Translations under genes and position numbers: made by a program
The notes under the pieces: generated by a model
Seen by the model: the letters and a program-made list of their open reading frames with translations, nothing else
What the model was told of the DNA's origin: nothing
Databases searched by the model: none
Assembly (NCBI GenBank): GCA_902779785.1
Contig: CACZDC010000032.1
Coordinates: 1-42,035, forward strand
Source of the DNA: an uncultured Bacteroidia bacterium
GTDB taxonomy: Bacteria; Bacteroidota; Bacteroidia; Bacteroidales; UBA932
Length of the DNA stretch: 42,035 bases
Direction: 5' to 3'
Shown: piece by piece, positions 1,638-25,212 of the stretch
How positions within the stretch are numbered: position 1 is the stretch's first letter
Layout of the letters: each line of letters starts with the position of its first letter

Positions 1638-3326
1638 TTACGGCTTATAGTATTCTTTGAGCGCCGCCACATCTGCCACGCCAAGTACGTCGGAGGTCAT
1701 TATGAACTCGTCCATCTGGGCGGGAAGACTGTATTCCAGGGCGCCGGTGCCGTCCTGGCCGATATTCATCGAAAGCGAGTCGAATGAGGTCGAGGCGAGC
1801 TCCGAGGGAATATCCGCCTCGTCTCCATAGAATGCAAAGTCGTAGTATATCCTGACCTTGCGGTTTTCGCGGTCCACGCTCAGGATTACGTGCATCCAGC
1901 CCTTGTCATAATTGGAAGGAAGAAGACTTTCCAAATCCATCCTGTTCTTGCCGTCGCCCACATTGAACTTGATGTCCTTGGTGCCCCTGTAAGACAGGAT
2001 GAAGCCCTTATACTTCCCTTCCTGCCAGTCCTTGTTCGAGATCAGTCCCGGATCCGCCTTCGAGGGAGATACGGGAGAGCCCTTCAGCCAGAAGGCCACG
2101 GAGAACGAGCCGCTTCCGACCTTGACATCCTTGAGCGTCACATATCCGTTATTCAGCGCGATTCCCTTTCCAAAGTAGGCGTCATAGTACTGGAGTGTGC
2201 CGGACTCTGATGTCTGGACCTTGCCGAAGGCGTCGCCAGTGCTCTCGTCAAAAGGAAGATAGGCAATCACCTTGTGAGCGGAAAGGAGTGTCTGCATATT
2301 GCTGAGGGCCGGAGTAGGCACAGTCTGATGATTGCGGTACTCTTCGCCGGGAATCTTTGTTTCCTTACGCGGCCCAACCTCAGTGACATCCTTGAATACG
2401 CCCGCGGGAACGTGTCCGCTCCAGGTCTCGGGATATTCCAGTCCAAGGGCATAGGCTGCTATCGCCGCGACGTCACGTCCTTCCGCCTCCACGATCGTGC
2501 CGCTTGCCACAGTCTTTCCTGCAACCCCCAGGAAGACATATTTCTCCTCGTCGGAATCCCCTCCGTGAGTCTTGTCTTTTCCCCCGTGGTCGGCCGTTAC
2601 GATGAAGAGGGTGTCGTCCAGGATGCCTTTCAGTTTCAACTGGTCATAAATCCTTCCGATCAGTGCATCCGCCGTACTGACCGTCGAGAGGTAGATATCC
2701 GTACCGAAGCCGTATTTCTCGCCGATGTCGTCAGGAGATGAGAACTGGACGAACAAGACAGTAGGGGTCTTGTCCCTGAGGTAAGTGAGAATCCTTCCGG
2801 TCACTTCGGCGTCATCCTCTCCGGTCCCTTTCTCGACGTTGAGATTATTCTCGACTATTCCTATATTGATAGGGTTCCATTCCACGAATGAAGCCAGCTC
2901 GGCATCCGGCATTGCCTCCCTGGCGACCCTGAACAGGGACGGATAGGGGCTGTAGACCGGATATGGGGTCTTCTCTATGATGGCATTTGTAAGTCCGTGG
3001 AACTCCGGAAGGACTCCGTGAAGAATCGAGGCCCAGCCCTGTGCGCTCCAAGTCGGCAGGGCCATAAGGGACTTGTATGTCGTCGCCTGGTCCTTGAAAA
3101 TCTCGTCGCAGCGCGGGGTGTCCGTGTCCCTGAAGGACGCGCCGGCCCCGTCCACGCCGATAATCACCACGTGCTTGTAGGCGCCTTTGGAAACGACGAC
3201 CTCCTCCGGCACCACAGGATCTGTCCGGGGCTCCGTATTCTTGTTGTTGTCAATGTTCTCTTTGGAACTGCAGGAAGCAAGAATGCACAGTAGAGAAGTG
3301 AAAAAAGTGGCGGAAAATGTTTTCAT
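1638..3326 (-). CDS. Alkaline-phosphatase-superfamily lipoprotein with C-terminal LamG-like domain
   Basis: A 562-residue lipoprotein with an SPII signal (LASC, Cys19). Residues about 50-320 look like the alkaline phosphatase / type I phosphodiesterase fold: VVIIGVDGAG with metal-ligand Asp59, PTWSAQGWAS with probable nucleophile Ser94, and TADHGGKDKTHGG with Asp246, His247 and His254. The segment usually written DxxGHxxG reads DDIGEKYG here, so a Glu (203) stands where a metal-binding His is expected; activity may be altered. Residues about 350-562 resemble a concanavalin/LamG jelly roll, often glycan binding. The gene is divergent from the hybrid regulator of the neighbouring utilisation locus and probably belongs to it. 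Whether it is a phosphatase, phosphodiesterase or sulfatase cannot be told from sequence alone. Confidence 0.82.
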   Translation of the reverse strand: MKTFSATFFTSLLCILASCSSKENIDNNKNTEPRTDPVVPEEVVVSKGAYKHVVIIGVDGAGASFRDTDTPRCDEIFKDQATTYKSLMALPTWSAQGWASILHGVLPEFHGLTNAIIEKTPYPVYSPYPSLFRVAREAMPDAELASFVEWNPINIGIVENNLNVEKGTGEDDAEVTGRILTYLRDKTPTVLFVQFSSPDDIGEKYGFGTDIYLSTVSTADALIGRIYDQLKLKGILDDTLFIVTADHGGKDKTHGGDSDEEKYVFLGVAGKTVASGTIVEAEGRDVAAIAAYALGLEYPETWSGHVPAGVFKDVTEVGPRKETKIPGEEYRNHQTVPTPALSNMQTLLSAHKVIAYLPFDESTGDAFGKVQTSESGTLQYYDAYFGKGIALNNGYVTLKDVKVGSGSFSVAFWLKGSPVSPSKADPGLISNKDWQEGKYKGFILSYRGTKDIKFNVGDGKNRMDLESLLPSNYDKGWMHVILSVDRENRKVRIYYDFAFYGDEADIPSELASTSFDSLSMNIGQDGTGALEYSLPAQMDEFIMTSDVLGVADVAALKEYYKP

Positions 3327-3353
3327 AATGCATCATTTGTAGCATATTATCAG

Positions 3354-3384
3354 CAAAAATAATGAAGAAATTCTTACCTTGCAA
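3354..3384 (-). promoter_or_regulatory. Bacteroidota-type promoter for the phosphatase-like lipoprotein
   Basis: Read on the minus strand, TTG (3384-3382), then 20 bp, then TATTTTTG (3361-3354), matching TTTG/TTG-N19-21-TAnnTTTG. It lies 27 bp upstream of the ATG at 3326. Confidence 0.6.
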
Positions 3385-3468
3385 CAGATATTTCCAAGAA
3401 GCAGTACGTTATGGAGAATCCTTGCAATTATCGAAGGAATCGGTATAATAAAAGCTGCCCTGGAAGCT

Positions 3469-3476
3469 TAATTTTG
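3469..3476 (+). promoter_or_regulatory. Possible -7 element for the hybrid regulator
   Basis: TAATTTTG matches TAnnTTTG, but no -33 TTTG is found at the right distance. It ends only 5 bp before the ATG at 3482, so a transcript from it would be almost leaderless. Weak call. Confidence 0.3.
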
Positions 3477-3481
3477 CAAGT

Positions 3482-6400
3482 ATGAAATACCTTGCCACAT
3501 TACTGATAACGCTGTCGATATTCCCTTTTTCGTCCCGGGCAGGGGCGCAGGAAGCGTGGCAGACTTCGCAGCTGGATATGCACTCCGGGCTCGGGGACAA
3601 CTGCGTCAACGACGTCCTTTTGGATTCAAGGCACTTCCTCTGGATCGGGACAAATGCCGGGCTGGAATTCTACGACGGCAGCAATATGGCCCGTGTCGCT
3701 TTCCCGGAGGCGGAGAATGCTGTCCCTCCGCTGGTGTTCTCGCTCTCCGAGGACAATGCCGGCGTAGTCTGGGCCGGGACTTCGGAGGGACTTTTCCATA
3801 TCGATAGAGACCGGCTTGAGATGCGGCGCCTTGACGGGGAAGCGTTACGCGTGGCATCCTTCCGGCAAATGTGCTGCGGAAAGGACGGTTCCCTGTGGGT
3901 GGCGGCAGACGAAAGAGATTTACTGAAAATCAATACTTTGACAGCGGAAATCGGGACGGTTCCGCTGGAGGCCAGGGCCGTCTGCGGCAGCCCGGACGGA
4001 ACGGTTTATGCGCTTTCCTCGGATCATCGTCTTTTCGTCCTGACCGGCGGTGCTCCGTATTCGGTCAACTACCACTCCGCAGAGATGCTTGACGGGGTTA
4101 CCGTCTCACGTATAGCATACGCCGGAGGCAGCCTTTTCCTCTTTGCGGAAGGCGGCGGAGTATATGCCATAGATCTGGAGAGAAAAGAACTCCGTCCTCT
4201 GACTTTTGTGAGCAGGGTAAGGGATGCCGCAGGGCTGTCCGACGGGGAGATCTGGCTGGCCGCAAGGGATGGTATCCAGGTCCTTGACAGTACTCTTGCG
4301 CCCATCCGTGTCATCCGTCCGCTCCGGGACAACTCCTTCCGCTGCCTTTCCGTGGATCCGCAGGGCGGAGTCTGGGCCGGAACCCTCTTTGAGGGACTTG
4401 CCCATATCGTTCCAGACGTGGTCCGTTTCCGTCGTTATGGGGACGATTTCGCCCCCGGGAGGTTCAAGGCGCGTGATTTTGCCGAAACGCCGGACGGCCG
4501 GATATGGACAGGAAGCGATACGCGAGGCCTTCTGTGCCTGGATCCGTCGGCCCCGGAGCGCGCTGCAAAGCAGTTTTTCCCGGGGAGGAATGTCACAGGC
4601 CTGATGGCTGAAGGAAGTTCTCTCTGGGTCGGGACCATTGACAACGAACTGCCGGTGATGCGGTTGGATACGGAAAGCGGAAAGACCGTCGCTTTCCCCT
4701 CTGCAGGAAAGTCGGCCTATGCTTTCTGCCGTGACACCCGGGGGCGGCTCTGGATCGGTGGACAGGACGGTTTCGTGGTCGGCCGGGACAGTGCCGACGG
4801 CAAGTTCGAAGTGGAGATGTCAATGCCGACAAAACAGGTCTGCAGGATTATTTGCGCCTCGGACGGAGCCGTCTGGGTGGCGAGTATCAACGGTAGCATT
4901 ATTCGTTATAAATCAAGTGATTACTCCACCTACAGGATCCCCATATCCAATATTCTCACCGACATCATCGAAGATGGAAAGGGGAGGATTTTCGCGACTT
5001 CCGAAGGCACTGGCCTGTGGGAATACAAGAGAGAGACGGACTCTTTCCAGAGTTTGGGCCTGACGGACACAAGACTGCTGAAAATTTCCCGGGACGGAGA
5101 CTTGCTCCTCGTCACCGGATCCCACGGAATCCAGATCCTGAATCCGGACGATGCGCGCCCGCTTCCTTTGATTTCCACGGAAATACTTGGCATAGACAGT
5201 TTCAACTATTCCTCCAACTTCATTTCCGGGGATGGAACGCTGTACGCCGGTACCTCTGACGGATTTATCTCTTTCTCCGTCAGTGCATTGCGAGAAAGCT
5301 CGTCCGTCATCCGCAAACCGGCCATCTCTTCTTTCCGCATTCTGTCTTCATCCGGAAAGACGGAAGGGGGCCGCTTCCTTCGCCCGGTTTCTATGCTGCT
5401 CGGCAGCAAGACTCGTTCCTTCGAGGTCAGCGTGTCGCTGTTGGACTATGCCCTCTTCCCCGGCGCGAACATCTTCTGGAAAATAGACGGTCTGGGGGAA
5501 TGGACCCAGGTTGAGGACGGCCGTTTCACGGTCTATGACATCCCTTCGGGAAGATGGAAACTCAGACTCAAGGCCGTTTCGCTTTCCGGCGAGGAGAGCG
5601 AGGAGGCGATTATGAACCTGAGAGTCAAGCCGCCGCTGCTTCTCAGCCCTGTTGCCATTCTGCTGTACATTGTCCTTTTCCTGATGACAGTCTTCGGCAT
5701 AGCTCTCTTCGTCGAGAGGAAGGCCAAGGCCAAGGCGGAGATGGAGCAGGAGCGAAAGATCCTTGAGTCCAAGATGGACTTCCTGACTTCCATCGCCCAC
5801 GAAATCCGCACCCCGCTGTCTCTGGTGCAGATTCCGCTGGAGGAGCTGATCAGGAAATTCTCTTCCTCGCCGGACGGTTCCGTCCAGGAAAACCTGGACA
5901 TTATGCGGCGGAATTCAATGAAGCTGACGGTGCTTATCAATGAACTGCTGGATTTCCGGAAACTGACGGATTCGACCTATCAGATCCATCCCGAGTTCCT
6001 GGACATCCGGACCGTCCTGAAAGACGCTCACCGCCGTTTCCTGCCTATGTTTGTCCAGGAGGGAAAGACGCTTTCCATCCAGATGAGAGAGGCGCCGGTT
6101 TACTGCGAGACCGATGTCCGAAGCCTCGGCCGCATCTTTGACAACCTGCTTTCCAATGCCCTGAAATACTCTTCCCACCATACGGTCATCACTTTGTCGG
6201 TCTCCGGTTCCGAGGCGGTCGTGAGCGTGGAGAATGACGGGACCATCATTCCCGAAGACGTGCGGGAGGAGATATTCAAACCCTTCTACCGCTACGATGA
6301 CGCTGCCTCCGCAGGCATCGAGGGAACCGGCCTGGGGCTGTCCACCAGCCGTCAGTTCGCCTCGCTTCTCGGCGGCTCGCTCTGTATGGACGACGATATG

Positions 6401-7258
6401 GGTATCAACCGTTTCCTTTTCACCGTCCCGGTCTCCGCAGAGGAAAGTCCGGGCAGCGGCCTGCCTGTCGTGGAGTCCAAGGACAAGTCCATAATGGTCG
6501 TTGAGGACGACAGGGATATGGCCCGTGTCATCGGGGATATCCTGGGCGAAGCCTATGGCGTCATTTACGCGTCCAACAGCCGCCAGGCAATGGAAAAGAT
6601 TACCTCAGGAGCGTCTCCTACCCTGGTGGTGTCGGATGTCATTATGCCTGAGATGGACGGGATTGCCTTAACCAAAGCCCTGAAGAGCAATCTCGCCACC
6701 AGCCATATCCCGGTTATCCTGCTTTCCGCGGAGGTCCCGGACGTGTTTATGCAGGAGGGGCTCGAGGGCGGTGCGGATGCCTACCTCGAAAAACCATTTT
6801 CGCCGAAGAAGCTGCGTACGACGGTGGACAATCTGATAGAAAACCGCCGCAGGATCTACGAATTCTATATCTCGTCGCTTCCTTCCAGCGGAGAGCTCCC
6901 GACGGGAAGGGTCTCCGCCGTGGAGCAGAAATTCCTCCGCAGCATCCAGGAATATGTTTCGGAGAATCTCCATAAGAACATTACCCTCGACGACCTTGCC
7001 GAAGTGGTCTGCCTCTCTCCTTCCACCCTGTACAAGAAGATGAAGGATTATGCCGATGTGTCCCCGATGGAATATGTGATGAAGGTACGTCTCCACCGTG
7101 CCGTAGAACTCTTGAAGGACGACTCCGTCTCCGTGCAGGAGGTGGCTCAGTCGGTCGGGTTCAACACCCACTCTTTCTTCTCGGAGTGTTTCAAACGCGA
7201 ATTCGGGATGACCCCGCGGCAGTGGAGGCTCCGAAATGTGGCAAAACCTACGAAGTAA
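3482..7258 (+). CDS. Hybrid two-component system regulator (HTCS)
   Basis: A one-protein sensor-regulator of 1258 residues, the usual size for HTCS proteins controlling Bacteroidota polysaccharide loci. Order: signal peptide (1-22), two-component propeller repeats (about 30-620, repeated motifs such as LWIGT, VWAGT, LWIGG), Y_Y_Y domain (about 655-715), one membrane helix (about 720-745), HisKA with phospho-acceptor His773 in IAHEIRTP, HATPase with N-box NALKYS and GTGLGLS (about 870-985), receiver with Asp1052 in VVSDVIMPEMDG, and an AraC-type HTH (about 1145-1256). The propeller would sit in the periplasm and bind an oligosaccharide or a related product; the HTH would switch on the downstream genes. 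The next gene begins one base after its stop codon, so the two are probably cotranscribed. Confidence 0.96.
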   Translation: MKYLATLLITLSIFPFSSRAGAQEAWQTSQLDMHSGLGDNCVNDVLLDSRHFLWIGTNAGLEFYDGSNMARVAFPEAENAVPPLVFSLSEDNAGVVWAGTSEGLFHIDRDRLEMRRLDGEALRVASFRQMCCGKDGSLWVAADERDLLKINTLTAEIGTVPLEARAVCGSPDGTVYALSSDHRLFVLTGGAPYSVNYHSAEMLDGVTVSRIAYAGGSLFLFAEGGGVYAIDLERKELRPLTFVSRVRDAAGLSDGEIWLAARDGIQVLDSTLAPIRVIRPLRDNSFRCLSVDPQGGVWAGTLFEGLAHIVPDVVRFRRYGDDFAPGRFKARDFAETPDGRIWTGSDTRGLLCLDPSAPERAAKQFFPGRNVTGLMAEGSSLWVGTIDNELPVMRLDTESGKTVAFPSAGKSAYAFCRDTRGRLWIGGQDGFVVGRDSADGKFEVEMSMPTKQVCRIICASDGAVWVASINGSIIRYKSSDYSTYRIPISNILTDIIEDGKGRIFATSEGTGLWEYKRETDSFQSLGLTDTRLLKISRDGDLLLVTGSHGIQILNPDDARPLPLISTEILGIDSFNYSSNFISGDGTLYAGTSDGFISFSVSALRESSSVIRKPAISSFRILSSSGKTEGGRFLRPVSMLLGSKTRSFEVSVSLLDYALFPGANIFWKIDGLGEWTQVEDGRFTVYDIPSGRWKLRLKAVSLSGEESEEAIMNLRVKPPLLLSPVAILLYIVLFLMTVFGIALFVERKAKAKAEMEQERKILESKMDFLTSIAHEIRTPLSLVQIPLEELIRKFSSSPDGSVQENLDIMRRNSMKLTVLINELLDFRKLTDSTYQIHPEFLDIRTVLKDAHRRFLPMFVQEGKTLSIQMREAPVYCETDVRSLGRIFDNLLSNALKYSSHHTVITLSVSGSEAVVSVENDGTIIPEDVREEIFKPFYRYDDAASAGIEGTGLGLSTSRQFASLLGGSLCMDDDMGINRFLFTVPVSAEESPGSGLPVVESKDKSIMVVEDDRDMARVIGDILGEAYGVIYASNSRQAMEKITSGASPTLVVSDVIMPEMDGIALTKALKSNLATSHIPVILLSAEVPDVFMQEGLEGGADAYLEKPFSPKKLRTTVDNLIENRRRIYEFYISSLPSSGELPTGRVSAVEQKFLRSIQEYVSENLHKNITLDDLAEVVCLSPSTLYKKMKDYADVSPMEYVMKVRLHRAVELLKDDSVSVQEVAQSVGFNTHSFFSECFKREFGMTPRQWRLRNVAKPTK

Positions 7259-7259
7259 T

Positions 7260-9572
7260 ATGCATAGAGTATTTAGCTTCATTATTACACTGGTAATGTT
7301 GCCCTTGCTGTGCTTTGGCCAGTCTGCCGGAGACGGGATTACAGTGGGATCGTTCAATGTAAGATTCTTGGATGACAACCGGCCGGAATATGACTATAAG
7401 TTCGGAGGGCAGCCCTGGCCGGTCCGCCGTCCCGCCGTCAAGGCTTTTTTTGAGCAGAAAATCCCGGATATAGTAGGACTTCAGGAGGTCCGGAGAACCC
7501 AGGCGGCTGACTTGGAGGAAGACTTGGGGACGGATTGGTTCATCTATTGCCCCGGACGTCTCAGCGGGGGCAGGATGGTGCGCACCTCTGACGAGTCTGT
7601 CGGCGTGATGTACCGCAAGGCCCGTTTCAATATGCTGGACCACGGATGTTTCTGGCTGAGTGAATCCCCTTCAGATACTGCTTCTACGCGCCTCGGACAG
7701 TCAAGCCCCATTATCACTTCCTGGCTCCGTCTGGAGGAAAAATCACATCCGGGAAAGGACATCTGGTTCTTCTCCGCACATATAAGCTGGTCAGTTGAGG
7801 CCAATCCGCGGCTTCCGGACCAGGAAGTCGAGACCTTGCTCTCACAAATTGAGAAATTGACCGGGATAAAACGGGAAGAGTTCAAATCTGCCTCCATATT
7901 CCTTGTCGGCGACCTTAACAACTCACCGGAAAAATCGGCCATCCGGACGCTTTCAGGCTGGTTCAACGATGCACGCCTGAGCTGCCCCGAAAACGAAGCT
8001 ACTTCCCGCAAGACATTCAACTCCTGGGGAAAGGAGAAATCGGCCGGAATAATAGACTATATCTTCTATGGCGAAGGAAAGCCCGAAGAGTACATAGTGG
8101 ACAATGCCGCCTATGCCCCGGACGTGAGCTTTATTTCCGACCATTATCCGGTGCTGATGCGTTTGACCATTCCTCCGGCGAAATACTGCCTTACGCCCCA
8201 GGCTCCGCCTCAGCCGCGTTACAACGGCCCTGCGGTCCTTGGCGCAAGACCGGGACATCCTATTTATTTCCGTCTCCCTTTCTCCGGGGACAGGCCTATG
8301 AAATTCAGCGCCTGTGGCCTTCCGAAAGGCCTTAAACTCGACAGGAAGAGCGGAGTCGTAAGCGGGACTGTAGGAAAAGAGAGGGACTATGAGATAAAAT
8401 GGACCGCCCGAAACAAGGCCGGAAAAGGAGAGGGAAGCCTGACTCTTAAAGTCGGCGAATCGATAGCCCTCACCCCGCCTATGGGTTGGAACAGTTGGAA
8501 TTGCTGGGGGCTCGAAGTCTCGCAGGAGAAGGTCGCGGCATCCGCCAAAGCCTTGATAGAGAGCGGCCTTGCCGACTACGGCTACAGTTATGTCAACATA
8601 GACGACGCTTGGCAGGCCCAGTCCCGAAGCGAGGACGGAACGCTTCTTCCGAACGAGCGCTTCCCTGACATAGCCGCTCTTGGAGACTGGCTGCACGGAA
8701 ACGGGCTTAAACTGGGGATATATTCTTCCCCCGGGGACCGCACCTGCGGGGGCTATCTCGGCTCGCTGGGTTACGAAGAGCAGGATGCCGCCACCTGGAA
8801 TGAATGGGGCGTGGATTACCTCAAATACGATCTGTGCGGCTACAGGTCCATATTGAAGGAACTGCCCTCCGTCGGCAAGGAGGAGCATATCAAGCCGTAC
8901 CTTATAATGAAAGATGCGCTTGCGAAGCAGCCCCGGGACATTGTCTATTCTATCTGCCAGTACGGCCTTGAAGATGTATGGACCTGGGGAGAGGAGGCCG
9001 GAGGCAATCTATGGCGTACGCACGGTGACCTGACGGACAAATGGGAGCGTGTCGTACGCATCGGATTTGTGAAACAACGTAATCTTGCTCCTTTCTCCGG
9101 CCCGGGACACTGGAACGACCCTGATATGTTGGTAATCGGAAAGGTTGGCTGGGGAGAAGGCCTCCGTGACACCCGCCTTACCCCGGATGAGCAGTATTCC
9201 CACGTGTCGCTGTGGGCCCTTCTGGCCGCTCCGCTGATTATCGGCGGAGACCTTTCCGCAATAGACAAGTTCACGCTTAACCTTCTCTGCAACAACGAGG
9301 TGATAGCCGTGGACCAGGACCCGCTCGGGAAGCAGGCAAGTCTGCTGTTGGAAGAAGATGCCCTGCAGGTCTGGGGTCGGCCGCTTAGTGACGGCTCTAA
9401 TGCCGCAGGCATCTTCAATATGGGCGAAAATGCCATGGAAGTGAATGTGGCCCGGATCCTTGGCAAAGCCGGATATTCAAAGGTCTCTTCCTGCCGTGAC
9501 CTCTGGCGGCAGAAAGACTGCCCGCCGAGCTTCACCATCCCTTCGCACGGAGTGCTGCTGGTGAGATTCTAG
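7260..9572 (+). CDS. Secreted EEP-domain / GH27 alpha-galactosidase fusion
   Basis: A 770-residue bifunctional protein. The start at 7260 is preferred over the in-frame ATG at 7236 because it begins the signal peptide (MHRVFSFIITLVMLPLLCFG) and avoids overlap with the regulator. Residues about 27-302 form an endonuclease/exonuclease/phosphatase domain with VGLQEVR, AHISW, VGDLNN, IIDYIFYG and SDHYPV, the usual metal and catalytic residues. Residues about 322-399 look like an Ig-like He_PIG domain. Residues about 405-770 are glycoside hydrolase family 27: TPPMGWNSWNCW, nucleophile Asp524 in YLKYDLCGY, and the acid/base motif WNDPDM. No lipobox, so probably periplasmic. GH27 members remove terminal alpha-galactose, alpha-N-acetylgalactosamine or beta-L-arabinopyranose. 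The pairing suggests a substrate with both a phosphate ester and such a sugar (inference). Confidence 0.92.
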   Translation: MHRVFSFIITLVMLPLLCFGQSAGDGITVGSFNVRFLDDNRPEYDYKFGGQPWPVRRPAVKAFFEQKIPDIVGLQEVRRTQAADLEEDLGTDWFIYCPGRLSGGRMVRTSDESVGVMYRKARFNMLDHGCFWLSESPSDTASTRLGQSSPIITSWLRLEEKSHPGKDIWFFSAHISWSVEANPRLPDQEVETLLSQIEKLTGIKREEFKSASIFLVGDLNNSPEKSAIRTLSGWFNDARLSCPENEATSRKTFNSWGKEKSAGIIDYIFYGEGKPEEYIVDNAAYAPDVSFISDHYPVLMRLTIPPAKYCLTPQAPPQPRYNGPAVLGARPGHPIYFRLPFSGDRPMKFSACGLPKGLKLDRKSGVVSGTVGKERDYEIKWTARNKAGKGEGSLTLKVGESIALTPPMGWNSWNCWGLEVSQEKVAASAKALIESGLADYGYSYVNIDDAWQAQSRSEDGTLLPNERFPDIAALGDWLHGNGLKLGIYSSPGDRTCGGYLGSLGYEEQDAATWNEWGVDYLKYDLCGYRSILKELPSVGKEEHIKPYLIMKDALAKQPRDIVYSICQYGLEDVWTWGEEAGGNLWRTHGDLTDKWERVVRIGFVKQRNLAPFSGPGHWNDPDMLVIGKVGWGEGLRDTRLTPDEQYSHVSLWALLAAPLIIGGDLSAIDKFTLNLLCNNEVIAVDQDPLGKQASLLLEEDALQVWGRPLSDGSNAAGIFNMGENAMEVNVARILGKAGYSKVSSCRDLWRQKDCPPSFTIPSHGVLLVRF

Positions 9573-9710: not shown

Positions 9711-9718
9711 TATTTTTG
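9711..9718 (+). promoter_or_regulatory. Probable -7 promoter element for susC
   Basis: TATTTTTG fits TAnnTTTG and lies 21 bp before the ATG at 9740. No clear -33 TTTG is found at the expected spacing, which would suit an activator-dependent promoter under the hybrid regulator. Confidence 0.45.
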
Positions 9719-9739
9719 CCGTCATATAATACTAATTAT

Positions 9740-13731: not shown

Positions 13732-14772
13732 ATGTATAAAAAGCAAATGACTTTTCAAGTTATCCTGGGCGTTCAGGCTTCGCTGGACGACATTGTGACC
13801 GGCAGTGCAAACTATTATTACAATTCCGCCACCTACGGCGACGGCATCTGCCTTTCCCGGGCATTTATCTTCACCTATCTCTGCAAGGATGGCAGCCGGT
13901 TCACCGACAAAGCCAAATACCAGGCCATCAGTTTCATCAACGAGTTCTCCAACCGTGATGAACGTCTGGCCCAGACCGTCAAGGGTCCCAACTATGAAAT
14001 CAACGGCGGAGGCTGGAGGGACCGCCGTCCCGACATCGTGGGCGGCTGCGCCGTCACCGGATACCAGCCCATCAAGTTCGTGGAAGACGACGTGAGCAAG
14101 AACGGCACAAGCAAGAACGAGAACAGCCTGCCGATTCTCCGTTATGCGGAGGTGCTCCTCAACTATGCCGAGGCAAAGGCCGAACTCGGAGAACTTTCCG
14201 ATGCCGACTGGGCCAAGACCATCGGCGCCCTCCGTCTGAGGGCGGGATTCGGCGACAAGGCAGGAGTGACCTCGTCCAAGCCCACTTCCGTGGATCCCTA
14301 TCTCCAGCAGGTTTTCTATCCGGACATCAACGATCCGGTCATCCTGGAAATCCGCCGCGAGCGGGCGATCGAACTCGTCCTCGAAGGATTCCGGGAAATG
14401 GACCTCAGGCGCTGGAAGGAGGGAGAGTGCTTCGAGCGGGTACCCATCCTCGGCCTGCACGTGCCAACCCTGAACGCTCAGTTCAAGGTCAACAACGACG
14501 ACACCAACGATTTCTACGTGACATACGACGAATACGCCGCCGTACCGTCTTATGCCCAGAACAAATATGTCCAGGTCCTTCCGGACAGTTCTCCCGAACA
14601 GGGACTCCGTCTGGATGAGAATCCCGACGGCGGCTACGACCTCCGCTTCGTCCTTGCCATCAAGCGCAAGTGGTACTCCGACAACAGGCAGTATCTCGAT
14701 CCCATACCGCCCCTTGTCGTCCGCGATTACGAAAGCCGTGGCTATCACATTGACCAGAACCCCGGATGGTAA
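13732..14772 (+). CDS. SusD-family protein, C-terminal fragment of a broken gene
   Basis: A 346-residue open frame in the same reading frame as the N-terminal fragment. SusD similarity begins at about residue 10 (VILGVQASLDD) and runs to the end, with YGDGICLSRAFIFTYLCKDG, LRYAEVLLNYAEAKAELGE and ILEIRRERAIELVLEGFREMDLRRW, all typical of the SusD C-terminal domain, and ending in GYHIDQNPGW. It has no signal peptide, so if translated from the ATG at 13732 it would stay in the cytoplasm. Confidence 0.85.
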   Translation: MYKKQMTFQVILGVQASLDDIVTGSANYYYNSATYGDGICLSRAFIFTYLCKDGSRFTDKAKYQAISFINEFSNRDERLAQTVKGPNYEINGGGWRDRRPDIVGGCAVTGYQPIKFVEDDVSKNGTSKNENSLPILRYAEVLLNYAEAKAELGELSDADWAKTIGALRLRAGFGDKAGVTSSKPTSVDPYLQQVFYPDINDPVILEIRRERAIELVLEGFREMDLRRWKEGECFERVPILGLHVPTLNAQFKVNNDDTNDFYVTYDEYAAVPSYAQNKYVQVLPDSSPEQGLRLDENPDGGYDLRFVLAIKRKWYSDNRQYLDPIPPLVVRDYESRGYHIDQNPGW

Positions 14773-14784
14773 AAATTAAGTATT

Positions 14785-17322: not shown

Positions 17323-17331
17323 AATGACCTT

Positions 17332-17469
17332 ATGAAAAAGAAATACTTGTCACCGGACACGGCAGTGTTCAACATTACTTGCATAGAGCGGGCGTTTTGC
17401 AACGGCTCTGAACTGGATTCCCTTGAGGAAAAGAACGACCTGAGTGGTTTTGACTGGAATTATAATTGA
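17332..17469 (+). CDS. Small 45-residue peptide of unknown function
   Basis: The frame starts at ATG 17332 (MKKKYLSPDTAV), includes two Cys (17 and 23), an acidic centre (ELDSLEEKND) and an aromatic, Asn-rich tail (GFDWNYN), and stops at TGA 17467-17469. It begins 9 bp after the stop of the upstream EEP lipoprotein and ends 8 bp before the next ATG, so it would be read as part of the operon. No signal peptide or membrane segment. Short peptides opening with MKKxYxxP and ending in acidic or aromatic tails are common beside lipoprotein genes in Bacteroidales; their role is unknown to me. Too short for many gene callers. Confidence 0.6.
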   Translation: MKKKYLSPDTAVFNITCIERAFCNGSELDSLEEKNDLSGFDWNYN

Positions 17470-17477
17470 TTGAGGCC

Positions 17478-20400
17478 ATGAAAAAGCTTAATTCCATAGT
17501 CCTTCTCCTGCCCCTTATCTTCTCTTGTGCCCAGGAGAAAAATCTTGAGACAGAGACGCTTGCCGAGACGCTTGTTTTCGAAGCGAACATCCCGCAGACT
17601 AAGACGCATCTTGGCGAAAAAGAGGGAAGCGCTTATCCGAACTATTGGTCCGCGGGAGACGCTATCTCCGTCAACGGAGTTACATCGGAGCCTTTGGAGA
17701 CCGACTCGCCTTATGTCGGAACGAACAAGGCCGAGTTTTCCGTAACTTTGTCCTCGGGGAGCCCGTATTATTTCGCATACCCTGCGACTTACCTGTCGAA
17801 TTACAGCAACGGGTCGGCGACAATCACCCTCCCGGCGACACAGGCGTGCTCATCTACGACCTATGATCCGTCCGCATTCATAATGACGGGCACATCCAAC
17901 TCCGTGAAGGTTAATTTCTCGCCGAGGATGTGCTCCATCAAGTTGACTGTGCCGGGCACGTACGAGGCTAAGATTTCCTCCGTGATGTTCGAGTCTCTCG
18001 GGACGGAGAAAGTCAGCGGACCGTTCACGACTGATTTCGAAAGCATCAGCCCTGCTTCCGGCGCTTCGCCCCGTGTCGTGGTGTATGCTCCGGGAGAGGG
18101 TTTGGCATTCGGCAATGCGGTACATCTGCTGATTCCAGCCCAGACATACGCGAGCGGAATGCGCTTTACCATAAGCGCTACCGACGGGACCCGGATGGTA
18201 TTCTCTACCACCTCTTCCTTCGCCGCCCAGGCCGGGAAGGTCTATCCTCTGACTTCGCAGAGCTATGCTCCTCAGCCTGAGCTTATTCCGGAAGGACTGA
18301 TGGTCATGTCCTCCAATGTCCGTTTCGCCTCGGCCCGCGACAAGAGCAGTAATCCGGATACCGGCGAACGCGACTGGACCAACCGGAAGGCGGCCTACTA
18401 CGCCATGGTCAATTATTACCGCCCGGCTGTTATCGGCCTGCAGGAAGCGGAAAAAGAACAAGTCAAGGACATCAAGAACAACTGCAGCGGATATAACCAC
18501 TATGGTCTTGGCCGCAAGCAGGGTAAGGATATCGTTGCCGACGACAGTTACTGGGGTCTGGTCCCCGGAACGCAGGCCGGTGAGGAATCTTCCACCATCC
18601 TTTACAGGACGGACCTCATTACCCTTAACAGTTCCGGTACATTCTGGCATTCCACCACTCCCAACACCGCCGGCAGTTATTACTCGGCGATGACAGACAA
18701 GGTGCCCCAGACCTCCACCTGGGCCATAATGACATATAAGCCTACAAATAAGCAGTTCTTCATCCTGAACACTCATCTGAGCCTGTATGACTCGCGGCCC
18801 GATGAGATTGCCCTCATCATGAGTACGGTAAACAGCAAGAATACCGGAAATCTTCCGGTGATTATGACAGGTGACTGGAACCTGGTGGAAGGCGACTCGT
18901 GGCTGGATCCCATCGAGGCTACTTATTCCAATGCCCGCCATACGGCTCAGATAAGCGATTCTTACGGGACCTACCACTGGTGGGGAACACAGAGCAAGCT
19001 GATCGACCATATCTATTATAAAGGGATCGGCGACTGCTACATGTTCCGTACCGATAATCGCAAGTGGAACGACAAGTATATCTCCGACCACTATCCGGTG
19101 TTTGCGGTATTCGATCCGAATCTCGGCAGCAGCGCATCCGTCCCGACGGTCGATTTCGACCCGCCGGTGGATCCGCAGATCGACGAGGTGGTTACCTTCA
19201 CTGACCGCTCCTACTCTCCGGCCGGAATTGCATACTGGGAATGGGACATCGACGGCATACGCTCCAACGCGCAGAATCCCACGGTTACCTTACAGTCTGT
19301 GAAGGACGCGGCTGAGGTGCGCCTTACCGTCGTTGACAACAACGGTAATCACGCAAGCGCAATCAAATTTATCAAGGTTGAAAGTACAGATGACCACAAG
19401 CTGACTGAAGCGTGGAGCCGGGTGTACGATTCTACGACGGAAGCCACCGCTTACTGGTCTTCGCCTGCCGTGAATGCCACTGGTGACCGGATTTATGTTT
19501 CTTCCTCCGGCTATCATCTTGTCGCATACAATGCTTCGGGTACGCAGCAGGGGAGCTTTGATATCGGGCAGTACGGCGCCGCCATCAGCGGCAGCAAGAA
19601 CTGCCAGACCTGCACGCCTTCCGTGGATTATGACGGGAACGTCTATATTCCGGTTCAATATTCTACTGGCGCCGGCGGCAACGGAGGACTCTTCTGCATC
19701 AGACCGAACATGACGGAGAAATGGTATGTAGCGACAGGAACGAATTCCCAGTACCGCACCCACATTCCTGCCATCTTCGGCGATTATGTGAGTGTCATTA
19801 CGCGAAATGTCGACAGCGGCTTGTTTGACTCGAATATGGTCATACTGAAGCGCAGCGACGGAAGCCTTTTCCAGACACTTGGCTGCGACAAGGGCTCTTA
19901 CGGCGGCATGGCCGTGAGCACCGGCGGGAGACTGGTATTCGGCTCAGCCCGTGGCGGAGCCTCTTCCGGTACTGCTGCCGGAAGCGAGACCAGCGGCGGC
20001 TACAAGGTTGGAATCTTTGACAACGCGACCGGTTTTTGGAAGACTTCCGCCAACAGCGACGCGGGCCGCGCCCTCAACATGCTCGGCATGACCCATACTG
20101 ACGGCTACGGCTACCTGACCAAAGGCTTCCAGCCGGCTATCAACTGGAATGACGGCAGCGTCTATGTCTGTGCCACGACCGATAACGAGAATATGATTGT
20201 AGCCCGCTACAACCTGAGTTTTTATGTCTACGGCTCCGCTCCCACGCTGATCTGGAAAGTGGAAGTTGAGGCAGCGGCCAACAACTTCGGCCTCGGCTGT
20301 GTGCTGGACGCCGACGGCAACGCCTATGTGCGTGCGGCCAACAAGATTTTCAAGCTGAATGCCGCCGACGGCACCACGGCATGGTCACGCGAGACCGGAA

Positions 20401-20765
20401 CAGGCAACTGCGGCGTCCCGGCCATCGACAATCTCGGCTATGTCTATGTCACCGACAGCGGCAAGCGGCGCCTGCTCAAGCTCTCGCCTCAGGACGGTTC
20501 GCTTGTATCTCAGTTCTTGTTTGAAAACTCCCAGCCGAGGACCAGCCCGACAATCGACAGCAGCGGAAATATCTATGTAACCTGTACCTCCATCAATGAC
20601 GAAGGAGCCATCCTCTACAAGCTTACATGCCCCCGCACTACCGGGCCGGCTGCCAACTGGTCGCAACTCGGCGGAAATCAGATGAAGACCTGCCAGGCCG
20701 GAAGCTGGGAACACGTGACCGGCTCGGCAACGCACGAAGGCTACACAAGTGAAAGTCTGTATTAG
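17478..20765 (+). CDS. Fimbrillin-like / EEP / PKD / propeller lipoprotein
   Basis: A 1095-residue lipoprotein; the start at 17478 gives a proper SPII signal (LIFSC, Cys17). Residues about 25-265 resemble the fimbrillin family (Mfa-like: TKTHLGEKEG, WSAGDAISVNG, SPRMCSIKLTVPG, LLIPAQTY, AGKVYPL). Residues about 272-547 are an EEP domain with MSSNVR, IGLQEAE, LNTHLSL, MTGDWN, KLIDHIYY and ISDHYPV. A PKD-type domain follows (about 553-635) and then PQQ-like propeller repeats (about 638-1075). From the EEP onward it parallels the 845-residue protein upstream, so the pair probably arose by duplication followed by gain or loss of the fimbrillin-like part. It also has a short extra C-terminal tail. 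Probably cell-surface, with phosphoesterase activity on an unknown substrate. Confidence 0.87.
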   Translation: MKKLNSIVLLLPLIFSCAQEKNLETETLAETLVFEANIPQTKTHLGEKEGSAYPNYWSAGDAISVNGVTSEPLETDSPYVGTNKAEFSVTLSSGSPYYFAYPATYLSNYSNGSATITLPATQACSSTTYDPSAFIMTGTSNSVKVNFSPRMCSIKLTVPGTYEAKISSVMFESLGTEKVSGPFTTDFESISPASGASPRVVVYAPGEGLAFGNAVHLLIPAQTYASGMRFTISATDGTRMVFSTTSSFAAQAGKVYPLTSQSYAPQPELIPEGLMVMSSNVRFASARDKSSNPDTGERDWTNRKAAYYAMVNYYRPAVIGLQEAEKEQVKDIKNNCSGYNHYGLGRKQGKDIVADDSYWGLVPGTQAGEESSTILYRTDLITLNSSGTFWHSTTPNTAGSYYSAMTDKVPQTSTWAIMTYKPTNKQFFILNTHLSLYDSRPDEIALIMSTVNSKNTGNLPVIMTGDWNLVEGDSWLDPIEATYSNARHTAQISDSYGTYHWWGTQSKLIDHIYYKGIGDCYMFRTDNRKWNDKYISDHYPVFAVFDPNLGSSASVPTVDFDPPVDPQIDEVVTFTDRSYSPAGIAYWEWDIDGIRSNAQNPTVTLQSVKDAAEVRLTVVDNNGNHASAIKFIKVESTDDHKLTEAWSRVYDSTTEATAYWSSPAVNATGDRIYVSSSGYHLVAYNASGTQQGSFDIGQYGAAISGSKNCQTCTPSVDYDGNVYIPVQYSTGAGGNGGLFCIRPNMTEKWYVATGTNSQYRTHIPAIFGDYVSVITRNVDSGLFDSNMVILKRSDGSLFQTLGCDKGSYGGMAVSTGGRLVFGSARGGASSGTAAGSETSGGYKVGIFDNATGFWKTSANSDAGRALNMLGMTHTDGYGYLTKGFQPAINWNDGSVYVCATTDNENMIVARYNLSFYVYGSAPTLIWKVEVEAAANNFGLGCVLDADGNAYVRAANKIFKLNAADGTTAWSRETGTGNCGVPAIDNLGYVYVTDSGKRRLLKLSPQDGSLVSQFLFENSQPRTSPTIDSSGNIYVTCTSINDEGAILYKLTCPRTTGPAANWSQLGGNQMKTCQAGSWEHVTGSATHEGYTSESLY

Positions 20766-20774
20766 TACTTCGAA

Positions 20775-22040
20775 ATGAAAAAAGCTTGTTTTCTTATCGC
20801 AGCCCTGTCGGTTCTCCTCTCCTGCCGCGGAGAGTCCCTGCCTCCCTTCCCGGAGGTAGGGGAGCCCTATGCCATAACTCGCGGACCGCAGGACCATCTG
20901 CTGGCCAATTACTTCGGCATCAATGCCTGGAGCCCGGACGGACGCTATGTGGCGGTGCTGGAAACGGATTTCACGGGCCGGCTCCCCGAAGTGACGGATA
21001 CGGCTGTAGTGGCCCTGGTGGACCTTTCCGACAGCTGCCGCTTCATCCCGATCTCAAAGACGGTCAGCTGGAATTTCCAGGAGGCGGCGATGTTCCACTG
21101 GCTTCCCTGGGAAGACGGGCTCTGCGTATTCAACGATATGCGGGATGGAAAGTTCGTCAGCGTGCTGCTGAACTGGAAAAGCGGGGAGGAGCGCATCGTT
21201 CCGAGGCCCGTGAGCGCCGTGGACCCGACGGGCGAATGGGCCGTCAGTCTGAATTATGCGCGGCTGAGGGTCTGCCGCCCCGATTATGGATATGCCGGGA
21301 ACGGACAGGATGCGCTGCTCGGCGAAGTCTGGCCGGAAGATGACGGACTGTGGCTGCTCAATCTCAAAACCGGAGAAGAACGGCTGATTCTCTCCGTCGC
21401 TGGTGCCAGGGATATGATGCCGGATATTACCTCCGGGGACGGACTGGCGTATTTCTGCCACACGATCATCTGCCCGGATGCTTCGAAAGTGTTTTTCCTC
21501 GCCCGTACTATCCAGGATTTCAATGCCCAGATGGAGACGAAGGGATATGTCTATAGATGGGATACCGTCTCGTTCACCATCCATACGGACGGGACGAGCC
21601 TCAGACGTTGCTTCCCGGATGGCTGGAAGGGTTCCCATTTCAATTGGAAGGACAACGAAACCCTCGCGGTGACGGCACGCTGGGATGCCGGGGAAAGCTG
21701 GTCGCACACTCTGTTGAAAGTGGGAGAGGAGGAGAAGGTCCGACATCTTGCCCCGGGCATTATGGACTGGGACGGACATTGCGTCTTCTCCCCGAACGGG
21801 CAGTTTATCAGCAGCGAGGGCTACTGGAACAAGGACGGCTACCGCAGCTGGGTGCTTCTTCGCCTGGAGGACGAGGCCCTTGTTTCCCTCGGCCGTTTCC
21901 TTGTTCCGGAAAAGTACAAGGAGCAGTATTCCCGCTGCGACCTTCACGCCCGCTGGCGTCCTGACGGGAAGCAGATGGCCTTCAATTCTGTCCACGAGGG
22001 AAGCCGGCAGGTTTATCTGAGAGATGTAAAATGGAAATAA
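20775..22040 (+). CDS. PD40/TolB-like beta-propeller lipoprotein
   Basis: A 421-residue lipoprotein (LLSC, Cys17). Repeated motifs of the WD40-like/TolB propeller type occur through the length: NAWSPDGRYVAV, DPTGEWAVSL, CPDASKVFFLA, FSPNGQFISSEG and WRPDGKQMAFNS, consistent with six or seven blades. Such proteins include oligogalacturonate-lyase-like enzymes as well as non-catalytic binding propellers; I see no motif that decides between them. It lies 9 bp after the EEP gene and 1 bp before the GH39-like gene, so it belongs to the operon. Confidence 0.75.
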   Translation: MKKACFLIAALSVLLSCRGESLPPFPEVGEPYAITRGPQDHLLANYFGINAWSPDGRYVAVLETDFTGRLPEVTDTAVVALVDLSDSCRFIPISKTVSWNFQEAAMFHWLPWEDGLCVFNDMRDGKFVSVLLNWKSGEERIVPRPVSAVDPTGEWAVSLNYARLRVCRPDYGYAGNGQDALLGEVWPEDDGLWLLNLKTGEERLILSVAGARDMMPDITSGDGLAYFCHTIICPDASKVFFLARTIQDFNAQMETKGYVYRWDTVSFTIHTDGTSLRRCFPDGWKGSHFNWKDNETLAVTARWDAGESWSHTLLKVGEEEKVRHLAPGIMDWDGHCVFSPNGQFISSEGYWNKDGYRSWVLLRLEDEALVSLGRFLVPEKYKEQYSRCDLHARWRPDGKQMAFNSVHEGSRQVYLRDVKWK

Positions 22041-22041
22041 G

Positions 22042-23457
22042 ATGAAGAGAATATTGTTCTTTGCTTTGCTGGCGCCGGCCTTTCTGCAGGCCCAGGAAAT
22101 CCAGCCTGACATTACCTCCGTCCAGGTCAGCGTGACGGTCGATCCTTCTGTCATAAAGGGGCCCGTCAAGCCTATGAACGCCGTCAACAATGGCCCGGCC
22201 TATGACAGCGATATGCAGAAGGCGGACTTCAGGATTCTCAACATCCCTTACAGCCGCACCCACGATGCCCACGGCTATTACGGGGAGCATCTGGTGGATA
22301 TCAGCGACATCTTCCCCGACTGGAGCAAGAACCCCGACAAAGAATCTTCCTATGACTTCCGTGAGACGGATCTCTATATCAAGACTTTGATTGAGGCGGG
22401 CAGCGAGCCTTTCTACCGCCTCGGGCAGACGATCGAGAACCAGACGGCGGCTAAGTACAATATCTTTCCGCCCAAGGATTATAAAAAATGGGCAAAGATT
22501 TGCGAACACATCATACGCCACTATAATGAAGGCTGGGCGGACGGCTTCCATTACAGTATAAAGTACTGGGAGATCTGGAACGAGGCCGACCTGGACCAGT
22601 CTTCAGGCCGCTGGAAGACGGAACCCCGCACCTGGGGCGGGCCCATCGAGGAGTTCCACAAGATGTACGCAATTGCCGCAAAGCATCTGAAAGAGTGCTT
22701 CCCGGATCTTAAGATCGGCGGGCCTTCCTATTGCCGTATCCAGGGGACCAAGACTTATTTCCCGCAGTTCTTCCAGTATATGCGGGACAACCAGGTCCCG
22801 ATCGACTTCATCTCCTGGCACAAATATGGGGCTGAACCTTCGGTCTATCTGATGGAGGCGGAACTCATAAGGGGTTGGATGAAAGAGTATGGATATGAAG
22901 CTGCGGAACTGATTCTCAATGAATGGAACTACCGCCGTTTCAAGGAGGGCTCCGGCACTTCCAACGAGCGCTACAACCGCCTGAACCGCCGCTCGATGAA
23001 GGGCGCGGCCTTTGTCGCCGCCACGATGTCGGCCCTCCAGGATGCTCCGGTGGATATGCTGATGTATTACGATTTCCGTTCAAACTCCAATTACTGCGGA
23101 TTCTACGACTACCAGACCCAGGAGCACAAGCCCGTCTATTACGCCTTTTATGCCTGGAGCAAGCTGGAAGGCAGCCAGTGCGCCTGCTCCGTAGATGGCG
23201 GGGCGGGGGACATCTATGCCGTGGCTTCGGTGAAGGACGGCAAGACGACCCTTCTTCTGACCCGTTACGACGGGGATAACAATGCCTGCAATTTGGCCAA
23301 GCTCAGTGTCTCTCTTGCCGGCCGGACTCCGGGACGGGTTTTCTGCCATCTGACTGATTCCGAGCATATTTACACGGAAATTCCGCTCTTTCCCTCGGAG
23401 GACGGAACGGTCAGCATCGAGCTTTGGAACAATTCAGTCGCCATCCTGGAATTCTAA
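22042..23457 (+). CDS. GH39-like glycoside hydrolase, secreted
   Basis: A 471-residue protein with an SPI signal (cleavage near FLQAQ). The fold looks like clan GH-A: acid/base Glu181 in KYWEIWNEAD and nucleophile Glu294 in LILNEWNY, with FISWHKYG between them. These motifs fit GH39 (beta-xylosidase, alpha-L-iduronidase and related activities) best. A small beta-sandwich probably covers the last 90 residues. No lipobox, so periplasmic. The start is 1 bp after the previous stop and the next gene follows 3 bp later, indicating tight coupling. Sugar specificity cannot be read from the sequence. Confidence 0.8.
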   Translation: MKRILFFALLAPAFLQAQEIQPDITSVQVSVTVDPSVIKGPVKPMNAVNNGPAYDSDMQKADFRILNIPYSRTHDAHGYYGEHLVDISDIFPDWSKNPDKESSYDFRETDLYIKTLIEAGSEPFYRLGQTIENQTAAKYNIFPPKDYKKWAKICEHIIRHYNEGWADGFHYSIKYWEIWNEADLDQSSGRWKTEPRTWGGPIEEFHKMYAIAAKHLKECFPDLKIGGPSYCRIQGTKTYFPQFFQYMRDNQVPIDFISWHKYGAEPSVYLMEAELIRGWMKEYGYEAAELILNEWNYRRFKEGSGTSNERYNRLNRRSMKGAAFVAATMSALQDAPVDMLMYYDFRSNSNYCGFYDYQTQEHKPVYYAFYAWSKLEGSQCACSVDGGAGDIYAVASVKDGKTTLLLTRYDGDNNACNLAKLSVSLAGRTPGRVFCHLTDSEHIYTEIPLFPSEDGTVSIELWNNSVAILEF

Positions 23458-23460
23458 GCT

Positions 23461-25212
23461 ATGAAACGGATTCTGCTTGTCCTCTCCTTTATATTCGCCC
23501 TCCTTCCTCTCGCAGGCAGGGAGGTAGTTTCCCTTGCGGGGCGCTGGAACTATATCGTAGATCCTATGGATACGGGTATCTACAAGTACCAGATGCAGCT
23601 CCAGCGGCCTTCGAAACGCTATTTTGCGGACCGGCATTTCTTCCAGGACAAGAGCAGGCTTGTCGAGTACGATTTCGACAAGGCGCCGACACTCGCTGTC
23701 CCCGGGGACTGGAATACCCAGGACGAGCGGCTCTACTATTACGAAGGCTCAGTCTGGTACCGTCGGCTCCTTGAGGTCCATAAAGTCCCGGGGCAAAGGT
23801 ACTTCCTCCATTTCGACGCGGTCAACTACAAATGTATGGTCGGTCTCAACAATGAGATCCTGGGCGAGCACAAGGGCGGTTTTACGCCATTTGGCTTCGA
23901 GGTGACCGGCGTTTTGAAGGAGGGCGAGAACAGCCTGGTGGTATGGGTCAACAATACCCGTGGCGTGTCCGAAGTTCCGACGCTCAATTTCGACTGGTGG
24001 AACTATGGTGGCATCACCCGGGATGTCACGCTCGTCAGCGTTCCGGAGCTTTACATCAAGGACTGGAGCTACCGTTTTGACGGGAAGGAAGTTGCGGTCG
24101 AGGTGTTCCTTGACGGAGGCGCCGCCGAGGTGAAAGTCGAGATTCCGGAGCTGGGGCTGAAGAAGAAAGCCTGTGCGGGCAAGGATGGCATAGCCCGTCT
24201 CAGGGCGAAAGTCCGTCCGGAACTGTGGTCCCCTGAGAATCCCCGGCTTTACGACATTTCAATAAGTTCCGGGGCTGACCGTCTGGATGAGCGCATCGGT
24301 TTCAGGACCATTGAGACCGCCGGGGAGCAGATTCTGCTGAACGGCAAGCCTGTCTTCCTGAAAGGGGTCGCGGTCCACGACGAGAGCATCGGGGTGAATC
24401 CCGGCCGTTGCAAGGGCGAGGAGGACGTGCGGGCGCTTCTGGAGGCGGCAAAAGACCTTGGCTGCAACTTCCTTCGCCTTGCCCACTATCCCCACAGCGA
24501 ACAGATGGTCCGCCTCGCCGAGGAAATGGGCTTTATGCTATGGGAAGAGATCCCTTGCTACTGGAATATAGACTGGAAGTCAGAGGAGACCTATGCCAAT
24601 GCGGAGCGCCAGCTGCTGGAAATGATCCGGCGGGACCGGAACCGCTCCGCCACCATCATCTGGTCCGTGGCCAACGAAACCCCGCATACACCCGAGCGCT
24701 TTGCTTTCCTGAAAAAGCTGATTGAAAAAGCCAGGGCGGAGGATCCGACGCGGCTCATCAGTGCGGCCATCCAGAAGAACAAACCTGACCTTTATCATCC
24801 TGTTATCGAGGATGACCTTGTAGAACTGACCGATCTCGTCAGTTTCAACCAGTATGTCGGCTGGTACGACGGCGTTCCCGCAGACTGCGACTCGGTCTGC
24901 TGGAGTGTCCCTCGCGGGAAACCTGTCATAATCAGCGAGTTCGGCGGCGGGGCCCTCTACGGCAACCACGGAAGCGCGTCCGAGATGTTCACGGAAGAGT
25001 ACCTTGAACTTCTGTACAGGAAGAATCTCGGGATGCTGTCGAAGATTCCCGGCCTTGCCGGCCTCAGTCCCTGGTGTCTCAAGGACTTCCGCTCGCCCAA
25101 GCGGCCCCTGACGGGTATCCAAGACGATTTCAACCGCAAGGGCCTCATCGACGAGCAGGGCCGCCGCAAACAGGCCTTCTATGTTATGAAGGCTTATTAT
25201 TCCTCGCTGTAA
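23461..25212 (+). CDS. GH2 glycoside hydrolase (beta-glucuronidase/beta-galactosidase type), secreted
   Basis: A 583-residue enzyme, close to the 600 residues of GusA-like GH2 proteins. It has a signal peptide (1-19), a sugar-binding jelly roll (about 25-195, YYYEGSVWYRR), an Ig-like domain (about 196-300) and a TIM barrel with acid/base Glu406 in WSVANETP and nucleophile Glu493 in ISEFGGG. NRKG near the C-terminus fits the N-x-K motif linked to uronic-acid recognition in beta-glucuronidases, but similar residues occur in other GH2 enzymes, so activity stays open. Last gene of the locus; its end overlaps the opposite-strand hydrolase gene by 16 bp. Confidence 0.9.
   Translation: MKRILLVLSFIFALLPLAGREVVSLAGRWNYIVDPMDTGIYKYQMQLQRPSKRYFADRHFFQDKSRLVEYDFDKAPTLAVPGDWNTQDERLYYYEGSVWYRRLLEVHKVPGQRYFLHFDAVNYKCMVGLNNEILGEHKGGFTPFGFEVTGVLKEGENSLVVWVNNTRGVSEVPTLNFDWWNYGGITRDVTLVSVPELYIKDWSYRFDGKEVAVEVFLDGGAAEVKVEIPELGLKKKACAGKDGIARLRAKVRPELWSPENPRLYDISISSGADRLDERIGFRTIETAGEQILLNGKPVFLKGVAVHDESIGVNPGRCKGEEDVRALLEAAKDLGCNFLRLAHYPHSEQMVRLAEEMGFMLWEEIPCYWNIDWKSEETYANAERQLLEMIRRDRNRSATIIWSVANETPHTPERFAFLKKLIEKARAEDPTRLISAAIQKNKPDLYHPVIEDDLVELTDLVSFNQYVGWYDGVPADCDSVCWSVPRGKPVIISEFGGGALYGNHGSASEMFTEEYLELLYRKNLGMLSKIPGLAGLSPWCLKDFRSPKRPLTGIQDDFNRKGLIDEQGRRKQAFYVMKAYYSSL

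Follow-up and report, generated by a model that had tools for sequence, protein, structure and literature searches.

A polysaccharide-utilisation locus with three EEP domains, proposed to act on a phosphate-decorated glycan, in an uncultured, probably rumen-associated member of the Bacteroidales

In a window of 42,035 nucleotides from an uncultured Bacteroidia bacterium (Bacteroidales, UBA932; contig CACZDC010000032.1 of assembly GCA_902779785.1), we have analyzed a polysaccharide-utilisation locus at positions 1638-25212. Here, susC adjoins susD and is accompanied by a hybrid two-component system (HTCS) regulator and several glycosidases (Pfam, TIGR04056), a gene order that is kept in relatives. 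Three of the encoded proteins carry an endonuclease/exonuclease/phosphatase (EEP) domain. Based on gene content, conservation, the retained catalytic residues, the nearest solved relatives and the domain fusions, we propose, as a model with an even chance of being correct, that the locus serves the utilisation of a phosphate-decorated heteroglycan, probably also containing alpha-galactose and beta-linked uronic acid. The HTCS would sense a breakdown product of the glycan, the lipoproteins EEP2 and EEP3, which have C-terminal propellers, would hold the polymer at the surface and strip its phosphate, and SusC/D would take up the oligosaccharides. In the periplasm, EEP1 would strip leftover phosphate that would otherwise block the glycoside hydrolase (GH) to which it is fused (GH27 here; in relatives, GH2 or GH63). 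Chain breakdown would be completed by GH27, GH39 and GH2. We infer the protein locations (from signal peptides judged by eye), the phosphatase activity, the order of the steps and the substrate. EEP1-3 are thus read as putative glycan phosphatases clearing the way for glycosidases, similar to sulfatases in sulfated-glycan loci. The logic is the same, with a charged group taken off before the sugar is cut, yet phosphoesterase-type enzymes take the place of sulfatases and the comparison is an analogy only.

The three EEP domains are embedded in different architectures (coordinates refer to the + strand unless stated otherwise). EEP1 is part of a fusion with GH27 and He_PIG at 7236-9572 (PF03372 at residues 39-303, PF16499 at 413-695, PF17801 at 708-778), with a signal peptide probably starting at 7260 (by eye) and a predicted periplasmic location; the signal peptides of proteins with a GH domain look ordinary by eye, without a lipobox cysteine. 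EEP2 (14785-17322; Pfam and a 13-sequence alignment) consists of an EEP domain at 14980-15684, a PKD-like part recognized by eye and a PQQ-type propeller. EEP3 (17466-20765) has its EEP domain at 18306-19091 (Pfam, AlphaFold2 model), likewise followed by a PQQ-type propeller, and carries a fimbrillin-like N-part and a PKD-like part, both assigned by eye. The lipoprotein anchoring of two EEPs, put forward in the initial annotation, agrees with the lipobox cysteines seen by eye on EEP2 and EEP3; such cysteines are also visible on an alkaline phosphatase (AP)-superfamily protein and on a 421-residue propeller protein of the same locus.

All three domains match PF03372 (E-values of 5e-11, 2e-6 and 1e-9 for EEP1, EEP2 and EEP3, respectively). 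The presumed EEP active site, made up of N, E, H, D, N, D, D and H, is invariant in 45 aligned domains, i.e., the three of the window and 42 from relatives. The earlier claim of complete catalytic motifs therefore holds for these eight residues in all three domains, with a deviation of EEP2 at its GD motif. By sequence, EEP1-3 group with the solved structures 3mpr, 4c1r, 3g6s and 3l1w, in which the single named activity is that of the mannosyl-6-phosphatase Bt3783 (4c1r; 3mpr, a structure from that species, is almost the same over the aligned part). Bt3783, which presumably belongs to the yeast-mannan locus of Bacteroides thetaiotaomicron, has the EEP fold and the catalytic residues in common with the window EEPs and ranks first or close to first among their matches, both in sequence and in fold. 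For EEP1, 3g6s comes first, followed by 3mpr and 4c1r; the EEP3 domain shares 25-28% identity with Bt3783. The FWLS-x-TP stretch of Bt3783 recurs as FWHS in EEP3 and as VWLS in EEP2. In a fold comparison made for EEP3 alone, the AlphaFold2 model of its EEP domain (pLDDT 88.7) fits the Bt3783 group well ahead of sphingomyelinases and also ahead of nucleases, and no inositol polyphosphate 5-phosphatase is present among the 50 fold matches listed. Of the relationships considered in the initial annotation, those to sphingomyelinases and nucleases thus rank below the Bt3783 group for EEP3. In contrast to Bt3783, the window has three EEPs, of which two bear propellers and the third is joined to GH27, and GH92 is not matched among the window proteins (Pfam).

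The glycosidases give an indication of the sugars involved. GH2 (23461-25212; PF02836/02837) is very close to solved entries named beta-galactosidase/beta-glucuronidase, beta-galacturonate and beta-glucuronidase enzymes. The solved uronidases 6d1n, 7vqm and 6ncy align to it over almost the full length with a common N-x-K stretch, presumably the element that recognizes the uronate carboxylate, and its FNRKG aligns to FNRKG, WNRKG, YNRKG or a similar N-R-K-G in five of five solved relatives listed. Judged by these alignments, it is probably a beta-uronidase of the GlcA or GalA type. GH27 matches alpha-galactosidases among solved relatives, and the nearest solved relatives of GH39 (22042-23457; PF01229) are a glucosidase and beta-xylosidases. 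GH63-type enzymes encoded by relatives match MGH1-like (mannosylglycerate hydrolase) and trehalase models, with weak, below-cut-off matches to alpha-glucosidase and glucosylglycerate hydrolase models. No single substrate is indicated by the best solved relatives of SusD, GH39 and GH27; together, the GH2, GH27 and GH63-type matches suggest that the putatively phosphate-bearing glycan contains alpha-Gal, beta-uronate and perhaps alpha-Glc.

The gene set recurs elsewhere, as the initial annotation had invited one to look for, both in genomes of the same genus and in a collection of named genomes. A relative of EEP3 (at least 57% identity over more than 630 residues) is present in 16 of 300 same-genus genomes, own genome included, and shares its contig with an EEP2 relative in 15 of these 16; the neighbourhoods of 12 were examined. 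A scan of the named collection with the EEP2 alignment returned 20 loci, short contigs included, which largely stem from the same metagenome-assembled genomes (MAGs) as the 300-genome matches, so that the two sets are not independent. SusC and SusD are found in all 20, as is EEP2 by construction, followed by HTCS (19, some cut), EEP3 (18), the propeller lipoprotein (17), GH39 (15), GH2 (14), GH63-type enzymes (11) and GH27 (9), in a tally that misses genes more than 10 kb away from EEP2. According to their record titles, all 20 loci originate from Bacteroidales or Bacteroidia MAGs. The nine that name an organ all come from a forestomach compartment (rumen, reticulum or omasum), with buffalo, sheep or yak as the host; a further seven have RUG names, which we take to denote rumen genome sets, and four have no stated source. 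Outside the genus, no full-length EEP2 was found at E<=1e-40 in 295 genomes of the order, representing 183 genera and sampled from a larger group; matches at this threshold were limited to the own genome and a single other genome of the genus, in which the EEP domain alone was matched. The order-wide search thus provided no characterized homologous locus from which a substrate could be borrowed.

Besides a phosphorylated glycan, the target could be a phosphodiester polymer or lipid, such as teichoic or lipoteichoic acid from neighbouring Gram-positive bacteria or a glycolipid of the glycosylphosphatidylinositol or glycosyl inositol phosphorylceramide type, with EEPs acting as phosphodiesterases. 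The EEP fold indeed includes sphingomyelinases and other diesterases, and an AP-superfamily lipoprotein of a diesterase family adjoins the locus (1638-3326, - strand; PF01663 and LamG, Pfam). Moreover, the EEP fusion partners in this genus are mostly alpha-acting (GH27, GH63, GH89, GH97 and GH13 are such families), which would fit the alpha-Gal, alpha-Glc and alpha-GlcNAc substituents that teichoic acids carry. However, within the closest EEP group a sugar monophosphatase is the single activity that has been named, the EEP3 model lies well ahead of the sphingomyelinases, and no lipase, amidase or ceramidase domain is matched in the window locus (Pfam). A uronidase and a GH39 enzyme are, to our knowledge, not expected for teichoic acid. 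The AP gene was seen in three of the 12 same-genus neighbourhoods and, in the same genomes, in three of the 20 named loci, a lower bound as these loci end 10 kb from EEP2 and do not reach as far as the place that the AP gene has in the window. Taken together, we regard a phosphodiester target as rather unlikely, and the AP enzyme as probably accessory.

Several observations weigh against a phosphorylated heteroglycan. EEP2 has SADWN where EEP3 has TGDWN, i.e., an Ala for the Gly of the GD motif, and 3g6s, the top match of EEP1, is without known activity. The AP enzyme retains an Asp, a candidate Ser/Thr nucleophile and an Asp-His pair, but in four of four orthologues a Glu occupies one position where we would expect a metal-binding His (by eye). 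In addition, another EEP locus of the own genome (L012) contains GH115, a glucuronoyl-esterase domain, GH27 and GH2, suggesting an unphosphorylated plant glycan; GH115 and glucuronoyl esterases belong to plant xylan-type chemistry, and we know of no phosphorylation of those glycans. An alternative is that the window locus targets an unphosphorylated plant glycan, e.g., arabinogalactan protein, and that its EEPs have changed activity or act on a minor component. EEPs stand beside many enzyme sets in one genome, which would exceed what is predicted from known glycan phosphorylation. Arabinogalactan proteins would also suit GH2 and GH27, both listed in the accessible part of one source among the families likely contributing to the degradation of these proteins (PMC8406133). 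Yet GH43, GH16 and other families acting on the arabinogalactan backbone are not matched in the window locus (Pfam), and the residues that serve to hydrolyse phosphoesters are strictly conserved, which makes this option unlikely.

A last point of this kind concerns susD, which is interrupted in this assembly, so that the locus of this strain may not work. The gene is split into a 5' piece terminated by a stop (12982-13635; SusD-like_3) and a 3' piece (13732-14772; SusD_RagB), while in relatives it is a single open reading frame (ORF) of 615-617 residues in 11 of 12 cases and of 644 residues in the remaining one. At 13596-13773, 178 bases of unrelated sequence, with a C-rich palindromic core and in-frame stops, replace 235 bases of a relative's susD; the alignment to that gene covers bases 1-614 and 793-1791 of the region (blastn against one relative). 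A genomic repeat was considered as origin of the segment and rejected, the genome having no second full copy. Both a real lesion and a MAG assembly error are possible. The initial annotation had mentioned neither this interruption nor the Glu of the AP enzyme nor the conserved propeller lipoprotein at 20775-22040.

The initial annotation had argued that ordinary glycan loci do not need four phosphoesterase-type modules and that a target with a phosphate ester fits better. This argument does not hold, as EEPs are common near SusC/D genes across the genome, and their number therefore singles out no target. With housekeeping-type ones counted in, the host genome (2.78 Mb in 126 contigs; completeness 95%, contamination 4.8%) yields 30 EEP matches, the highest number among 61 genomes compared. 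The counts are 1-17 (median 7) in 36 same-genus genomes and 1-10 (median 4) in 24 genomes of other families, with the incompleteness of many same-genus genomes lowering their counts and contamination possibly raising that of the own genome. With custom profiles, a SusC- or SusD-like ORF is no more than 10 kb away for 16 of the 27 own EEP matches that are not part of the window (19 of 30 with those of the window), a count lowered by cuts into 20-kb stretches and one match on a seam and raised if weak profile matches are other TonB receptors. All eight active-site residues are present in 23 of the 30 own matches, the gaps resulting partly from cut slices. That EEP number merely follows SusC number is partly true: across the 36 same-genus genomes the rank correlation is 0.43 (p 0.008), with first-look SusC candidates as a crude proxy, given that scored SusC matches reach no further than about 11 per genome. 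From the phosphate-ester target proposed in the initial annotation, the direction, phosphate on a glycan, is thus supported in contrast to the argument from number; its lipid and teichoic-acid options are possible and gain no direct support.

SusC/D pairs next to phosphoesterases also occur in the PusCD loci of Flavobacterium, which are induced by phosphate starvation (PMC8115612, as far as its accessible text goes). By analogy, EEPs and the AP enzyme would serve phosphorus scavenging by freeing the phosphate held in nucleic acids or in organic phosphate. The window locus differs from these loci by its HTCS and three glycosidases, and its EEP1 is fused to a glycosidase; in the same part of that source, SusCD complexes other than PusCD mostly sit with carbohydrate enzymes (PMC8115612). 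Scavenging is accordingly judged very unlikely.

The fusion of EEPs to glycosidases is a pattern that we consider more interesting than the locus itself. In the relative L066 (its contig is also L074), an orthologue of EEP1 with 70% identity forms the C-terminus of GH2; in L057, one with 67% identity forms that of a GH63-type enzyme, and GH27 lacks an EEP in the loci of other relatives. The three EEP1 copies form one clade, indicating that a single domain has changed places between three glycosidases belonging to the same locus. A DUF6259-EEP fusion flanks the locus of a relative (L063), and the own genome also encodes EEP-GH97 and BNR-EEP. Frames of at least 450 residues contain 14 of 30 EEP matches in the own genome, 27 of 116 in the genus and 5 of 98 in other families, where the latter two figures may include joined ORFs (in the own genome, two of 16 were separate 279-residue ORFs). 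Fisher and rank tests on these frame lengths are disregarded, since they included joined frames and the domains do not count as independent. Fifteen of the 27 same-genus matches, from 12 genomes and chosen non-randomly, mostly by length, were scanned: three are GH89-EEP, two contain GH97 (one with GDSL in between), one GH13 and one DUF6259, one is LamG/BNR-associated, one fimbrillin-like (below the Pfam cut-off), and six have no other above-cut-off Pfam domain. The five long EEPs of the 24 genomes of other families, all of which were scanned, include an EEP-GH2 and an EEP-metallophosphatase fusion; two more carry sorting tails and the last is a bare domain. On a tree of 48 EEP domains (53 less five long-branched rows), the fused label, which takes in DUF6259, requires eight gains or losses, at least six of them forced by well-supported branches. 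It is more clustered than expected by chance (5 of 500 shuffles were as low), indicating that fusions are partly inherited.

It is conceivable, if somewhat doubtful, that the EEPs of this genus are general glycan-dephosphorylating modules, repeatedly fused to GH2, GH27, GH63, GH89, GH97, GH13 and DUF6259, and that the genus is a phosphorylated-glycan specialist of the ruminant gut. The genus would then stand to phosphate as the sulfatase-rich degraders of marine and gut habitats stand to sulfate, and phosphorylated glycans would be a substantial unrecognized nutrient there. If EEP modules are glycan phosphatases, they provide a sequence handle on phosphorylated glycans, EEP-glycosidase fusions, as natural pairings, may reveal which sugar bears the phosphate, and many EEP genes so far named only endonuclease/exonuclease/phosphatase would obtain a role. 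In the accessible part of its text, one large survey of glycan loci took sulfatases and peptidases into account alongside CAZymes, but no EEPs (PMC6499787). We found no description of EEP-glycosidase fusions in the partly accessible literature, in a limited search for which slashed names were perhaps unsearchable and which is no proof of absence.

Among individual fusions, the alpha-N-acetylglucosaminidase GH89 carries a C-terminal EEP in three same-genus genomes (L092 3258-6164, L096 1505-4327, L101 3392-6370). A GH97-GDSL esterase-EEP triple fusion (L093 3965-7339) combines glycosidase, esterase and phosphoesterase-type domain in a single protein. A run of EEP genes after SusC/D-like ORFs (L006 7745-17849) includes a double-EEP protein and EEP-GH97. 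An EEP gene has as its neighbour the gene of a 1725-residue protein (L018 5260-10437) in which a calcineurin-like phosphoesterase is combined with a GDSL esterase domain and the N-part resembles that of EEP3. The 48-row tree also contains a separate long-branched clade of 11 rows, all from this genus (L002 17140-19467, L004 14880-17291, L102, L104, L105, L106), several with a long N-part without above-cut-off Pfam domain.

The remaining genes complete the set of three EEPs, AP lipoprotein, HTCS, SusC/D, GH27, GH39 and GH2 that the initial annotation had placed in one locus, and Pfam locates all of its members there. The HTCS (3482-7258) is composed of Reg_prop, HisKA, HATPase_c, Response_reg and HTH_18, and the SusC-like TonB-dependent transporter (9716-12976) scores 758 bits with TIGR04056, against a cut-off of 368. 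The propeller lipoprotein of 421 residues (20775-22040) shares 65-81% identity with 15 relatives; beyond its PD40 repeats no family is matched above cut-off, and its fold is near oligogalacturonate lyase (PL22), tied with S9 peptidase, so that a lyase is one of two candidate assignments. The start of the contig holds an ISL3-type transposase (Pfam), and housekeeping genes, e.g., for deoxynucleoside kinases and DnaX, follow 3' of the locus (Pfam).

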